A DNA stretch of 64,000 bases from Anabaena sp. FACHB-1237 (GTDB lineage Bacteria; Cyanobacteriota; Cyanobacteriia; Cyanobacteriales; Nostocaceae). The notes beneath the pieces were generated by a model, which searched no databases, was not told where the DNA came from, and worked only from the letters and a program-made list of their open reading frames with translations. Location of the stretch: the NCBI RefSeq assembly GCF_014696225.1, contig NZ_JACJPV010000014.1, positions 1 to 64,000 of the forward strand, given 5' to 3'. Shown in pieces: positions 38,027-43,581 of the stretch. Position 1 is the first letter of the stretch. Each line of letters starts with the position of its first letter. Position numbers and translations under genes: made by a program.

Positions 38027-39832
38027 TTAATAATGCGTCCCTGTTTTGCGATAGTTAATAGCTGTGATAGCATCGGGTTGTAATAACTTACCATTTTCTA
38101 CAATGGCATATATTACCCAATGATCACCACATTCCATTCGTTCATGTACAGTACATTCTAAATATGCCAGTGCGTCAGTAAGAATTATACAACCATTATC
38201 CGCTTCGGCTGTAGAGAAGTTAGCAAAGCGATTTTCTCCCGGAGCGAAGTTTTTGCGGAAATGCTTCATATACTCGGTGTGAATGCCCTCTGGAAGCACA
38301 TTCAGCGCGAATTTACCGCCGGGGTAGAGTAAAGATTCTATGGCTCGATCTTTAGCGATCGCCATCGTAATTCCTGGGGGGTTGAACGTCGCTTGAGACA
38401 CCCAACCTCCCATCATTCCCGTAGAAAAATCTCCCTGTTTAGCAGTAATAACACACACAGAACCAATAATGCGGCCTACCGCTTGTTCCATTGGTGTAGC
38501 TGCTTGTTGAGGTACTCGCACTTTTCTAGCCTTCTTCAATGCTTGAGCAAAATCTGTACCCACTTCCTCACAGTATTTCAGCGCAACTCCATCAGGCTTA
38601 AACTTAACCTTTAAAGTCTCAAACCCAAAACGATAACCAGCATCTCTTAATTTACCTTCTACCAAATCTAACGCTTCACCACTCCAACCATAAGAACCAA
38701 ATACTCCCACAGGTTTACTATTATTGCCACTTGCTAAGACAATTCCTAACGCGGTATGAATAGGTGTGGGTGCGTGACCCCCTATAGTTGGTGTACCTAT
38801 GATAAAACCATCGCAATTTTCTAACGTTTCACGAATTTCTTCAGGAGGTGCAAATTCACAATTAATAGATTTAACCGCTACTCCACCCTTTGTTAATCCT
38901 AAAGATATTGCTTGTGCTAATGTAGCAGTATTACCATAGGCAGAAGCATACAATAAAGCGACAGATATTTCTCTGGACTTTTGAGCGTGACTCCATTCAG
39001 CGTAGGACTTAGTTAAATCTAGTAAACTATGACGTACTACTGGACCATGACCTACTGCATACATTCTCACATGAAAATCAGAGATTTTTTCTAAAGCAGT
39101 TTCTACATGGGTAGCATGGGAAGCCATTAAACAATTAAAGTAATAACGTTGATCCTCTTTGAAAGTTTCCCAATTTTCATCAAAGGCTTCATCACCACAA
39201 ATATGAGCACCAAATAATTTATCTGTGTAAAGAATTTGGGTTTTTTCATCATAAGTGCAAAGTGCTTCTGGCCAGCGAGGACTAGGAGTAGGAAAGAACT
39301 TTAAAATATGACCTTTTCCTAAGTCTAAAGTTTCCTTACCTCGCATAGTGAAAATTCTAATATCTTGGTTAGGAAAAGCTGCTTTTAAATTATTTGCACA
39401 GGGAAGAGAACAAACAAAAGTAATTTGGGGAGCAATTCCTAATAAGGCTTTTAATGTAGGAACACGATTAGGATTAAAATGTCCTAAAATGACATAATCT
39501 AACTGAGAAATAGGAATTGTTTGTTGTAAAGTTGGGAGATAAATTTCCGTAAAAGTTTCTGGTGGGGGATCGGTAATAGCAATTTTTTCCCCTGCTATTA
39601 AATAACTATTAGAAGTAGTTCCTCTGCAAAGTGCATATTCTATTTCAAACCGTAAACGCGACCAACTACGGGATCTTAAAACTTTAGTATTTGTAGCAAT
39701 GGGGACTACTTGTACATCTCTTGGTTTGGAATTTATCATAGAATTGGAGGATGTTTGGGGTGCAGAGAAAACTTGAGAAAACCAATTTTTAGCTGATGTT
39801 ACAGCGTGAGAAAATGAATCTGGAATTGGCAT
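38027..39832 (-). CDS. flv1: Diflavin flavoprotein Flv1 (non-canonical diiron site)
   Basis: A flavodiiron protein that works with Flv3 to reduce O2 to water with NADPH-derived electrons after photosystem I. It has 601 residues: a beta-lactamase-like domain (about 45-285), a flavodoxin domain (about 290-440, IGTPTIGGHAPTP) and a C-terminal flavin-reductase domain (about 450-600). The normal H-x-E-x-D-H iron ligands are replaced by GHFNPNRVP, as in cyanobacterial Flv1, so its own iron site is non-canonical and it needs Flv3. A 35-residue N-terminal extension precedes the domain. The gene follows flv3 by 240 bp on the same strand. Confidence 0.93.
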   Translation of the reverse strand: MPIPDSFSHAVTSAKNWFSQVFSAPQTSSNSMINSKPRDVQVVPIATNTKVLRSRSWSRLRFEIEYALCRGTTSNSYLIAGEKIAITDPPPETFTEIYLPTLQQTIPISQLDYVILGHFNPNRVPTLKALLGIAPQITFVCSLPCANNLKAAFPNQDIRIFTMRGKETLDLGKGHILKFFPTPSPRWPEALCTYDEKTQILYTDKLFGAHICGDEAFDENWETFKEDQRYYFNCLMASHATHVETALEKISDFHVRMYAVGHGPVVRHSLLDLTKSYAEWSHAQKSREISVALLYASAYGNTATLAQAISLGLTKGGVAVKSINCEFAPPEEIRETLENCDGFIIGTPTIGGHAPTPIHTALGIVLASGNNSKPVGVFGSYGWSGEALDLVEGKLRDAGYRFGFETLKVKFKPDGVALKYCEEVGTDFAQALKKARKVRVPQQAATPMEQAVGRIIGSVCVITAKQGDFSTGMMGGWVSQATFNPPGITMAIAKDRAIESLLYPGGKFALNVLPEGIHTEYMKHFRKNFAPGENRFANFSTAEADNGCIILTDALAYLECTVHERMECGDHWVIYAIVENGKLLQPDAITAINYRKTGTHY

Positions 39833-40072: not shown

Positions 40073-41791
40073 TTAATAGTAATTCCCTACTTTGCGATGA
40101 CGCACTGCTGTAAGTCCATCTGGGTTGGATACCTTGCCATCTTCAACAACGCAGTATAAGATCCAATGATCGCTACATTCCATAGTTTTCACTACTTCAC
40201 ACTCTATGTAGGCTAACGCATCTGTAAGGATAGGTGAGCCGTTTTTGGCAATTTGGGTTCTCACTCCTGTAAACCTATCTGTACCGGGTAATAAACGCTT
40301 GAGGAAATGCTTTTTCAGGTCTTGATAGTTACTTTCTTCTAAAACATTCAAAACAAACCTGTCCCCTAATTGCAACAAACTATCTATCCCTCTATCTTTA
40401 GCTATAGCAATAGTAAAACCTAATGGCTGTAAACTAGCTTGTACTACCCAAGAAGCGATCATTGCTCCATTAGTTTCACCTTTTTTAGCTGTAACTATAT
40501 ATAAACCATTGCTAAGTCTACCTAATGCTTTCTCCATGTTTACATCAAGAGACTTAATTTGCTTAATATTCCGTTCTCTAATCAACAACTGTCCTAAATC
40601 ATGACCTGCATCTTCACATAATTTATAAGTATTTGCCGTGGGAGTTTCCTTAATACGAATTGCTGTAAATGCTTCCTTTATGCCTAAATCTATAAATTTA
40701 CGTCTTAGGGTATCAATAGGTTCATCATCACCACCATAGCATTCAAATAAACCTACCACTTGTTTATTTTTAGCCACTGCTAATAAAGAACTAATGGCAG
40801 CTTGTGCTGTGGATGCACTGGTAGGAGACATACCTACAATTAAACCTGTGGCACGGCCTGCTAATTCTTGGATTTCTTGAATGTCTGCTGTATTCAAATC
40901 TAATACTTCTACACCCACACCAGCTTTTTGCAGCCCGTCCCCAATAGCATGAGCTAGATGATCACTAAAACCATAACCAAAAACATAGAATAATCCTACC
41001 GTAGTTTCTGATTTTGCCTGTTTTTGACTCCAATTATGATAACAATCTTTTAATACTTCTAAATGATGATAAAGTAAAGGACCATGACCATTAGCTATGA
41101 TTTTAATATTTCCTAATTCGTTCATTTTTTTCATAGCATTTAATAATGAACGAGCATTTGGTCCCATTAAACAATCATAATAGAAACGAAAATCTGTCTC
41201 AATTGCTTCTAAATTTTCATCGAAAGTACGATCATCACAAAAGTGCATTCCGAAAGCATCACAAGTATAAATTACTTCTGTTTTTTTGTCGTAACTAAAT
41301 ATAGTATCAGGCCAATGTAAATTAGGCGCACTGACAAATTCAATTTCGTGACCTTTACCAATATTTATGCGATCGCCACTTTTGACAATTCGTTTAGAAA
41401 AAGGTTCATGAACTAATCCTTCTAAAAACTGTAATGCTACTTTAGAAGCTAATACAGTGGCTCTAGGAGCTAATCTTAACACATCTTCCACTAAACCACT
41501 ATGATCAGGTTCGGTATGACTAACAATGATATAATCAATAGATTTGAGATTAATTAAACCCTTGAGGGTATCTAAATAAAGTTGACGAAATTTCTGATGA
41601 GAAGTATCAATTAAAACTGTTTGTTCTCCTCTAATTAAATAAGAATTATAGGTTGTACCATTTTGCAAACCAAATTCAATATCAAAGCGATCGCGGTCCC
41701 AGTCCAGACAACGAATTGCTGTGGTATTAGGGGCAATTTCTACAGTTTGTATAGTTAACCGATGCTCGATATTTCCTGCGATCGTTACCAT
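40073..41791 (-). CDS. flv3: Diflavin flavoprotein Flv3 (canonical diiron site)
   Basis: The canonical partner of Flv1. It has 572 residues and the same three domains. The iron ligands are conserved as IVSHTEPDHSG with His92, Glu94, Asp96 and His97, and HGPLLYHH further on. The N-terminal TIQTVEIAPNTTAIRCLDWDRDRFDIE is typical of Flv3. Flv1/Flv3 hetero-oligomers protect photosystem I. In Anabaena 7120 the pair flv1B/flv3B is adjacent and heterocyst-specific, whereas flv1A and flv3A are vegetative. The adjacency here resembles the heterocyst pair, but paralog type cannot be proved without comparison. Confidence 0.93.
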   Translation of the reverse strand: MVTIAGNIEHRLTIQTVEIAPNTTAIRCLDWDRDRFDIEFGLQNGTTYNSYLIRGEQTVLIDTSHQKFRQLYLDTLKGLINLKSIDYIIVSHTEPDHSGLVEDVLRLAPRATVLASKVALQFLEGLVHEPFSKRIVKSGDRINIGKGHEIEFVSAPNLHWPDTIFSYDKKTEVIYTCDAFGMHFCDDRTFDENLEAIETDFRFYYDCLMGPNARSLLNAMKKMNELGNIKIIANGHGPLLYHHLEVLKDCYHNWSQKQAKSETTVGLFYVFGYGFSDHLAHAIGDGLQKAGVGVEVLDLNTADIQEIQELAGRATGLIVGMSPTSASTAQAAISSLLAVAKNKQVVGLFECYGGDDEPIDTLRRKFIDLGIKEAFTAIRIKETPTANTYKLCEDAGHDLGQLLIRERNIKQIKSLDVNMEKALGRLSNGLYIVTAKKGETNGAMIASWVVQASLQPLGFTIAIAKDRGIDSLLQLGDRFVLNVLEESNYQDLKKHFLKRLLPGTDRFTGVRTQIAKNGSPILTDALAYIECEVVKTMECSDHWILYCVVEDGKVSNPDGLTAVRHRKVGNYY

Positions 41792-42076: not shown

Positions 42077-42228
42077 TAATTATTAAAAAAATATAAAGAA
42101 TATTTATTCACAACTTATTGATCATATTCTCAAGATTCTTGACAATATTCTCAATAATTCCTACGAGTTTTCAAGGGTTTCAGGCTCTTGACATTTAGCC
42201 CCTCTTTTTGTATGATTTTTATAGTGTA
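42077..42228 (+). repeat. Duplicated 152-bp unit, copy A
   Basis: Matches 42312-42463 over its whole length, with strongest identity from about 42127 onward (ATATTCTCAAGATTCTTGAC, then TACGAGTTTTCAAGGGTTTC). The offset is 235 bp. Each unit ends with a near-consensus promoter. The part at about 42105-42125 is the least similar. Confidence 0.85.
42188..42216 (+). promoter_or_regulatory. Near-consensus sigma-70 promoter in copy A
   Basis: TTGACA at 42188-42193, 17-bp spacer, TATGAT at 42211-42216. A transcript would start about 42224 and run right into the gap and copy B. Confidence 0.6.
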
Positions 42229-42311
42229 AAATTTGAGCTTTACTATAACAATAATCTAAACAACATCGTATTCATAAATACCATCACAATACTGAATTAA
42301 GTATTTATCCA

Positions 42312-42463
42312 TAATTATTAAAAAAACATAAAGAAATTTATTGAGAAAAAGTCGGGTATATTCTCAAGATTCTTGACAATATTCTCAATAATCCCTACGA
42401 GTTTTCAAGGGTTTCAGACTCTTGACATTTAACCCCTCTTTTTGTATGATTTTTATAGTGTAC
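42312..42463 (+). repeat. Duplicated 152-bp unit, copy B
   Basis: Second copy of the unit; differs from copy A by scattered substitutions and a changed patch at about 42342-42358 that includes AAAGTCGGGTA. The strong promoter part is the best conserved. Confidence 0.85.
42422..42450 (+). promoter_or_regulatory. Near-consensus sigma-70 promoter in copy B
   Basis: TTGACA at 42422-42427, 17-bp spacer, TATGAT at 42445-42450. Spacing and boxes are identical to copy A. No gene follows on the plus strand for over 4 kb, so any product would be a non-coding RNA. Confidence 0.6.
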
Positions 42464-42587
42464 AATGTGGAAGATATTATAATTTATTTTAACTATTTGT
42501 TGTAGGTAGTTATAAATACTTTGAAAATACTGAAGAAATAGTTTTTAAAAACTATTTACAAACTATTAAACAACTATTAAAAAATAG

Positions 42588-42691
42588 TAAGCTAATGTGC
42601 AGCACTCACTGTATAAATAAAAAACCTGAAGTTACAGTAGCACAAGCATCTTGCTTGTATTAATTATTCAAGTTAAAGGCACAACAGCTTA
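42588..42691 (+). repeat. 104-bp MITE-like element, copy 3
   Basis: TAAGCTAATGTGC and GCACAACAGCTTA ends; internal ACAAGCA-TCT-TGCTTGT hairpin. It differs from copy 2 at only a few positions. It stands about 80 bp from the end of the MBL gene. Confidence 0.85.
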
Positions 42692-42768
42692 ATATGGCTG
42701 GAAATTAGCGATAGACCAAAATAGTAAATATAGTAAATAAAAAGATATTTTGTAATTAATGATAGTAA

Positions 42769-43581
42769 TTAATAACTAACAACTGAAGGTTGATAACTAA
42801 CCACAGATTCCAAAGCAGAAAATTCAAAAATCTGGCCACGTTTCACAAACCCTAAAAAGCCATCTTTTTCAGCGTCAGGTAAAACTGTAGGTTGATAACC
42901 ATAGAGCCACATTTTGTTTTTCAAAGAGTTAGGTAATTTAGTTAACTGTTTATAACTAGCATGAACTGGACTAGGATAAAGGGAGGTTTCGCAGTCATGA
43001 AAAATGAGGTCTGCTTCTTCATAAAACCGTCTATTTTGATGTAGCACTAACTGGGTATCCGTCGTGAGAAATATTTTCACACCTTCCACTTCAAAAAATA
43101 AACCATAGGATGGCATAAGATAATAACCACTATCAACATGAGTCACTGTCACTAATTGAAATTCTATTCCTTGCCAGAAAAAAGAACCTTCGTATTTAAG
43201 TTTTTCCATAGCGAAAAAGCTCTCCAATTCAGCAATTTCTCCACTGATAAATCTTAACCCCCCTGATAAGGTTCTATCCCATAAATCACTGGCAATATCT
43301 TTACTGGTATATAATCTTGGTCTTTGACAACGAGGGTCAAAAAATGTACTAAGGGCAATATATTCTAATCCACCCACATGATCAGCATGAAGATGACTAA
43401 TATAAATATCTGTAATATCCAGATGGGAAAAACCCGCTTGATGTAGTGAAAACCTAATATCTGTACCGCAGTCAACCAGGAGTTTTTGGTTTTGTTCATT
43501 GACTATGAGAATATTGGACTGAAAGTTGTCAGTACCTACAGTAAACGCCGAACCAGAACCTAGGAAGATTAATTTTGTCAT
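42769..43581 (-). CDS. MBL-fold metallohydrolase (RNase Z-like group)
   Basis: A 270-residue zinc-dependent hydrolase. The key motif is ISHLHADHVGGLEY with His63, His65, Asp67 and His68; Asp41 in VDCGTD, His in VTHVDSGYY and the FHDC motif (about 195-198) complete a dinuclear site. It has the general shape of RNase Z and related beta-lactamase-fold phosphodiesterases but lacks the clear RNase Z exosite, so the substrate is not assigned. The last residues VVSYQPSVVSY contain a tandem SYQPSVVSY-type repeat that comes from a duplicated DNA stretch, so the extreme C-terminus is recent. Confidence 0.85.
   Translation of the reverse strand: MTKLIFLGSGSAFTVGTDNFQSNILIVNEQNQKLLVDCGTDIRFSLHQAGFSHLDITDIYISHLHADHVGGLEYIALSTFFDPRCQRPRLYTSKDIASDLWDRTLSGGLRFISGEIAELESFFAMEKLKYEGSFFWQGIEFQLVTVTHVDSGYYLMPSYGLFFEVEGVKIFLTTDTQLVLHQNRRFYEEADLIFHDCETSLYPSPVHASYKQLTKLPNSLKNKMWLYGYQPTVLPDAEKDGFLGFVKRGQIFEFSALESVVSYQPSVVSY

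Follow-up and report, generated by a model that had tools for sequence, protein, structure and literature searches.

A tandem pair of promoter-bearing units beside flv3 in Anabaena sp. FACHB-1237 belongs to a dispersed intergenic element that shares half-sites with furA promoters

Introduction

What do two identical consensus promoters do in DNA that holds no gene? This question is raised by a short stretch beside flv3 in the first 64,000 nucleotides of contig NZ_JACJPV010000014.1 of Anabaena sp. FACHB-1237 (hereafter the window). A first-pass annotation of the window had described a duplicated unit of 152 bp, with copies 235 bp apart, each ending in the promoter TTGACA-17-TATGAT and facing right into gene-free DNA. 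Tandem non-coding RNAs were proposed, with the NsiR1 array of heterocystous cyanobacteria as a possible parallel. Here we analyze the pair, its relatives in other genomes and the explanations that may account for them.

Results

A tandem pair of direct copies with twin promoters

Direct copies at 42086-42248 and 42320-42482 are 83% identical (135/163 nt; 89% over 150 in a BLAST alignment of copy 1 with copy 2). Their start-to-start distance of 234 bp agrees within 1-2 bases with the annotated offset. The similarity stops near 42248 and 42482, about 25-35 nt past the -10 box. TTGACA-17-TATGAT is exact in each copy and has no further exact match on the + strand of the 64 kb, the strand that was scanned. 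The twin promoters are also the sole 11/12 sites among 18 promoter-like sites between 41000 and 44000. Two 8-mers of the type ATTCTCAA/TTGAGAAT within 170 bp were present in both copies, and none of 6326 overlapping background windows from the same sequence had them. The features are as follows.

42086-42253, + strand: element copy 1 (nhmmer 42085-42253, 83.1 bits; model R1 62.3 bits)
42126-42157, + strand: copy 1 half-sites B (42126-42133), C (42139-42146) and D (42147-42157, ATTCTCAATAA)
42188-42216, + strand: copy 1 promoter TTGACA-17-TATGAT, predicted start near 42223
42224-42232, + strand: second conserved box of copy 1, GTGTAAAAT (family form GTGTATAAT)
42254-42319, no strand: non-conserved spacer between the copies, into which promoter 1 would fire
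42320-42485, + strand: element copy 2, in tandem, 234 bp downstream (nhmmer 94.0 bits; R1 68.6 bits)
42337-42391, + strand: copy 2 half-sites A (42337-42347, TTTATTGAGAA), B (42360-42367), C (42373-42380) and D (42381-42391)
42422-42450, + strand: copy 2 promoter TTGACA-17-TATGAT, predicted start near 42457
42458-42466, + strand: second conserved box of copy 2, GTGTACAAT

Half-site A of copy 1 is degenerate (about 42103-42114). Both window copies are without a recognisable 5' box, and their profile matches begin at model position 28-29.

To the right of the pair, no + strand gene precedes the convergent gene for a metallo-beta-lactamase-fold protein (42769-43581, - strand), confirming that the promoters face gene-free DNA. 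The best Pfam match of this protein is Anti-Pycsar Apyc1 (73 bits, cut-off 50), and it is also RNase Z-like. A separate repeat lies directly right of copy 2 (42585-42707); it is 95% identical to G000:C42:575-697, and parts of it occur in several relatives. Between 41000 and 44000, the one terminator-like site is the stem of this repeat, ACAAGCATCTTGCTTGT.

To the left lie flv3 (40073-41791, - strand) and then flv1 (38027-39832, - strand). The set to which this flv pair belongs was present in 23 of 24 genomes searched, and a second flv pair of the same genome is on contig C7. We take the window pair to be Flv1B/Flv3B, a gene pair linked to heterocysts in Anabaena. The exception is genome G036, whose single flv3/flv1 pair (65% and 39% relative to Flv3 of the window) is not the one that the other 23 genomes have. 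Heterocysts may have been lost in this genome.

From its position upstream of flv3B, the tandem pair could be read as a control region of that gene. Yet it begins 295 bp from the flv3 start, its promoters point away from flv3, and elsewhere the element adjoins unrelated genes. Moreover, no copy was present at any of 80 named flv3-type loci or at any of 22 flv3B loci fetched from other genomes, which makes the site in the window specific to its lineage as far as this sample goes. Control of flv3B is therefore very improbable. The right flank of the pair matches elsewhere in relatives, and the loci of the left neighbour are without the unit.

The pair is part of a dispersed family

The first-pass annotation had recommended a search for copies elsewhere. 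BLAST of the same genome with copy 1 returned copy 2 and partial matches on contigs C25 (two, 200 bp apart), C42 and C67 (E 8e-6 to 4e-3). A profile was built from an alignment of 29 copies and, later, a sequence-only model (R1) from 36 copies; R1 detected seven full-type places in this genome, two each on C6 and C25 and one each on C42, C67 and C13. The pair thus represents a dispersed intergenic element, about 190-200 bp long, that is present here in tandem. These further copies rule out a unique pair of twin sRNAs.

A search of 217 family genomes with the two copies gave matches in 75 at E<=0.01 (three candidates scored per genome). R1 matched 74/217 at E<=1e-3, with a best E<1e-10 in 34/217, spread over 10 genera. 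Strong-match genomes usually carry several copies each; at most 15 candidates were scored per genome in this family-wide count, so that copy numbers such as 13-15 are lower bounds. Five copies were counted in G004. Single R1 matches near 1e-4 in other genomes may be chance. In a phylum-wide sample of 386 genomes, 33 matched R1 at E<=0.001 and, among the matches listed, all those below 1e-10 fall in the same family, the best outside it being 1.4e-9 (G317). G317, of the same order and another family, has seven weak R1 matches; those listed cover part of the model, and they perhaps represent a distant sister repeat.

Named genomes of the set include Dolichospermum planctonicum NIES-80 (G050) and Sphaerospermopsis aphanizomenoides (G197) (identical flv3 loci). 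A longer second subfamily in the genus of D. planctonicum (L177-L181, L184, L185 and L190) mostly has ATTCTCAT in place of ATTCTCAA; its members have about 190-330 bp in common at 83-90% and have apparently spread more recently. The literature searched yielded no earlier description of the element, which we have filed as a new dispersed promoter/operator repeat.

Conservation is block-wise

The element consists, in order, of a 5' box (ATAAGTTTTTTAAAT in most copies), four TTATTGAGAAT-type half-sites, ACGA, a -35 box and -10-like boxes. The half-sites, with arrows right, left, right and left, span the region from about 120 to about 65 bp ahead of the predicted start. Conservation was measured in 36 representatives, one per 80%-identity cluster (pairwise <=80%, mean 0.63). 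Majority fractions were highest for half-sites B (0.98) and D (0.96), ACGA (0.93), the -35 box (0.91), the 5' box (0.90) and half-sites C (0.88) and A (0.81). The second box (0.77), the -10 box (0.76) and an A-rich tract (0.76) were less conserved, and the remaining 99 columns averaged 0.62. As the blocks were named after inspection of the profile, these figures are a description and not an independent test. Four base pairs were predicted at the RNA level, with no compensatory change or covariation.

The half-sites recur in furA promoters

For Anabaena, a FurA consensus of AAATAAATTCTCAATAAAT has been reported, with FurA acting both as repressor and as activator (PMC4005646). The core of this consensus is identical to the half-site TTATTGAGAAT. 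A test for Fur-type operators gave 11/11 in the core of both copies and four half-sites with at least 9/11 each. In background windows of 170 bp, three half-sites occurred in 2/1266 and four in 0/1266, while both units have four. The 19-mer consensus is unspecific by itself (31 places in the window with >=14/19), and we therefore compared the furA promoters of four genomes. In 4/4 genomes, representing four genera and including the present one, ATTCTCAATAA is found at -84, ATTCTCAATTA at -36 and TTGTTGAGAAA at -18 from the start codon, at identical positions. One of these, ATTCTCAATAA, is half-site D of copy 1. In the literature cited, which includes PMC4734099, FurA bound its own promoter in gel shifts. 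FurA-regulated promoters differ from the element, which is dispersed as a block, carries its four half-sites upstream of -35 and lacks its own gene.

These matches make a Fur-type regulator the leading candidate for the half-sites. The spacing of the half-sites is unlike that of the classical Fur box, and they lie upstream of the -35 box, not over it. They sit about 65-120 bp ahead of the predicted start, a distance at which simple blocking and activation or cooperative spreading are equally likely. Fur genes were present in 4/4 genomes searched and, to our knowledge, FurA is general in cyanobacteria; co-occurrence of the element with Fur is therefore no test. The unusual spacing, together with the confinement of the element to part of one family while Fur is general, would fit the same architecture serving a non-Fur repressor or activator that recognises TTATTGAGAAT. 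Such a regulator is quite unlikely, given that half-sites very similar to these occur at constant positions in four furA promoters and that they fit the published FurA consensus.

The downstream DNA points to no common gene or RNA

The DNA downstream of the copies is not conserved. To the right of 82 unique copies, the nearest ORF was sense in 35 cases and antisense in 44, and 3 copies had none (copies >35 bits, orthologues included; ORFs >=80 aa from our own ORF caller), and a downstream regulon was rejected on this count. Intergenic regions of all orientations host copies, with (-,-) neighbours in 23 cases versus (+,+) in 6, an excess from which we draw no conclusion because orthologous sites are counted several times. 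Terminator-like hairpins were not enriched downstream: intrinsic terminators, as a terminator-ended intergenic sRNA would have, followed 7/65 copies, compared to a mean of 4.2 and a maximum of 8 in shuffles (copies >50 bits with 250 bp downstream). The mixed orientation of neighbours and the lack of terminator excess indicate that the copies share no gene and no sRNA end downstream. No Rfam family reached the cut-off in the pair region (cmscan).

These results bear on the proposed tandem non-coding RNAs. NsiR1-type arrays are expressed specifically in heterocysts and under HetR. Like the NsiR1 array of Nostoc/Anabaena, the window pair consists of tandem, direct, intergenic copies, each with its own promoter and no reading frame, and a second tandem pair occurs in the same genome. 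In NsiR1, as described in the passages cited, the RNA itself is repeated (about 60 nt, 12 copies), with the DIF1 motif TCCGGA at -35 and a position upstream of hetF (PMC9045159, PMC6133370). In contrast, the window pair repeats a control region, its transcribed part being neither repeated nor conserved beyond about 25-40 nt, and its family is dispersed. TCCGGA is absent from 42086-42620 at <=1 mismatch, and the neighbours are flv3 and the metallo-beta-lactamase-fold gene instead of hetF. Thus, the pair is not an NsiR1-type array, from which it departs in motif, position and repeated part. Given also the missing terminator enrichment, conserved structure and Rfam match, a tandem sRNA-gene array working like NsiR1 is improbable, and less likely than a mobile control cassette. 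What survives of the proposal is transcription as such: with a promoter block conserved in relatives and no sense reading frame, orphan (non-coding) transcription is plausible.

IsaR1 of Synechocystis offers a different comparison, being a single sRNA gene. The element, too, is predicted to give a Fur-controlled non-coding transcript; cmscan against Rfam gave no similarity, although IsaR1 is possibly not in Rfam. A FurA-binding site at IsaR1 is described in the cited passage (PMC12282138).

Copies are discrete blocks, with some sites occupied across genera

Unlinked copies of the same genome share the element alone, as seen in the pairs L187/L186 (G045; 92% over 273 bp), L168/L175 (G054; 90% over 198 bp) and L100/L137 (G046; 82% over 206 bp). 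Within-genome identity of copies is mostly 68-92%. Certain sites are occupied in more than one genus: the chlI site in two genera, a site at a Na/H-exchanger gene in g43, g50, g51 and g54, a dxs-adjacent site in g15 and g18, and a site adjoining a methionine-aminopeptidase-type (M24) gene in g4 and g50 (Pfam names). In the midpoint-rooted tree of copies, with support values left aside, grouping is largely by site at chlI and the exchanger. Occupancy is patchy, with the element at 7 of 28 chlI loci. About 90 bp adjoining chlI are common to most genomes, and the DNA beyond differs in the element-free ones, a pattern that fits gain and loss alike (the G036 start was not located and G195 has N upstream). 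Downstream of the chlI copy, L094:1394-1450 (minus strand) holds a repeat with AATCAGGATAACCAGGATTT that is frequent in these genomes and on Dolichospermum/Anabaena plasmids.

At a further site, in the genus of D. planctonicum (L126, L134, L107, L175 and L183), the element and an SLH/GHL10 gene are constant and the genes to the right vary by strain. Several of the variable genes start with MNNH or MNNR, and the site may hold changing cargo behind a promoter that stays the same.

Tandem pairs recur, on C25 of the same genome, on G055:C28 (307 bp apart) and in G096 (353 bp apart). No terminal inverted repeats were recognised by eye at the ends of 25 of the 38 full-length copies. Target-site duplications were not clearly above control, with best counts of 4 (4 nt), 3 (5 nt) and 2 (6 and 7 nt) versus shuffled maxima of 4, 3, 2 and 1 (38 full-length copies >80 bits, orthologous copies included). 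The element was absent from 72,556 plasmid and 50,697 phage records. No phage record matched and plasmid matches were confined to an unrelated tail of the query (196-251), and a phage or plasmid source was rejected. A viral contig with an exact 22-mer was taken as chance, the match lying inside a gene and scoring 8 bits.

The MITEs and dispersed repeats of bloom-forming cyanobacteria are comparable in being short (about 200 bp), multi-copy and intergenic, with sharp limits; 147 MITEs are listed for Anabaena sp. 90 in the passage cited (PMC3542288). Membership in this class fails on the ends, which have no recognised terminal inverted repeats or clear target duplications, though the element is dispersed and discrete. 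It differs further in that conservation tracks the promoter and operator blocks and some sites are kept across genera.

A selfish dispersed repeat would explain the promoter and half-sites as serving their own spread, or as binding the copying machinery, with no role for the host. The discrete copies at unlinked sites of one genome, the patchy occupancy with no tie to gene function or orientation, and the recurring tandem pairs agree with this. Arguing against it are the features of the ends just named, the occupation of the same sites across genera, the absence from plasmid and phage records save for the unrelated tail repeat, and a within-genome identity below the near-identity of an active element. 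We regard a purely selfish repeat as rather unlikely, though it is the most serious of the alternatives.

Discussion

The reading that best accounts for the duplication, the family and its dispersal, the block-wise conservation and the half-sites shared with furA promoters is that of a dispersed Fur-type operator and promoter cassette that fires orphan transcripts. We hold it tentatively, with a probability of about 0.4, as it is here that we infer Fur binding, transcription, the direction of regulation and benefit to the cell. Under the cassette reading, each unit would be a self-contained transcription switch with a sigma-70-type promoter. The half-sites would be bound by cooperating dimers of a Fur-family regulator (most probably FurA), which would set promoter activity by iron and redox state. 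The RNA would begin at the end of the conserved block and run into unrelated DNA as an orphan or antisense transcript; in the window it would head toward the 3' end of the convergent gene. The unit presumably spreads within genomes as a discrete block, with long retention at some sites thereafter; in the window it was duplicated in tandem.

A more far-reaching version is doubtful. In it, several to more than 10 sites per genome in bloom-forming heterocystous cyanobacteria would receive orphan or antisense transcription that responds to iron and redox state, through the dispersal of a Fur-controlled promoter cassette. The copies would make up a transposable regulatory network, which selection would maintain at some of the sites across genera.

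In Nodularia, the cited passage gives 764 predicted non-coding RNAs (PMC3610870). Many orphan start sites between genes are seen in transcriptome maps of heterocystous cyanobacteria, and some of these could be accounted for by a dispersed promoter family. A shared Fur-type operator, if true, would unite such orphan starts as one regulon.
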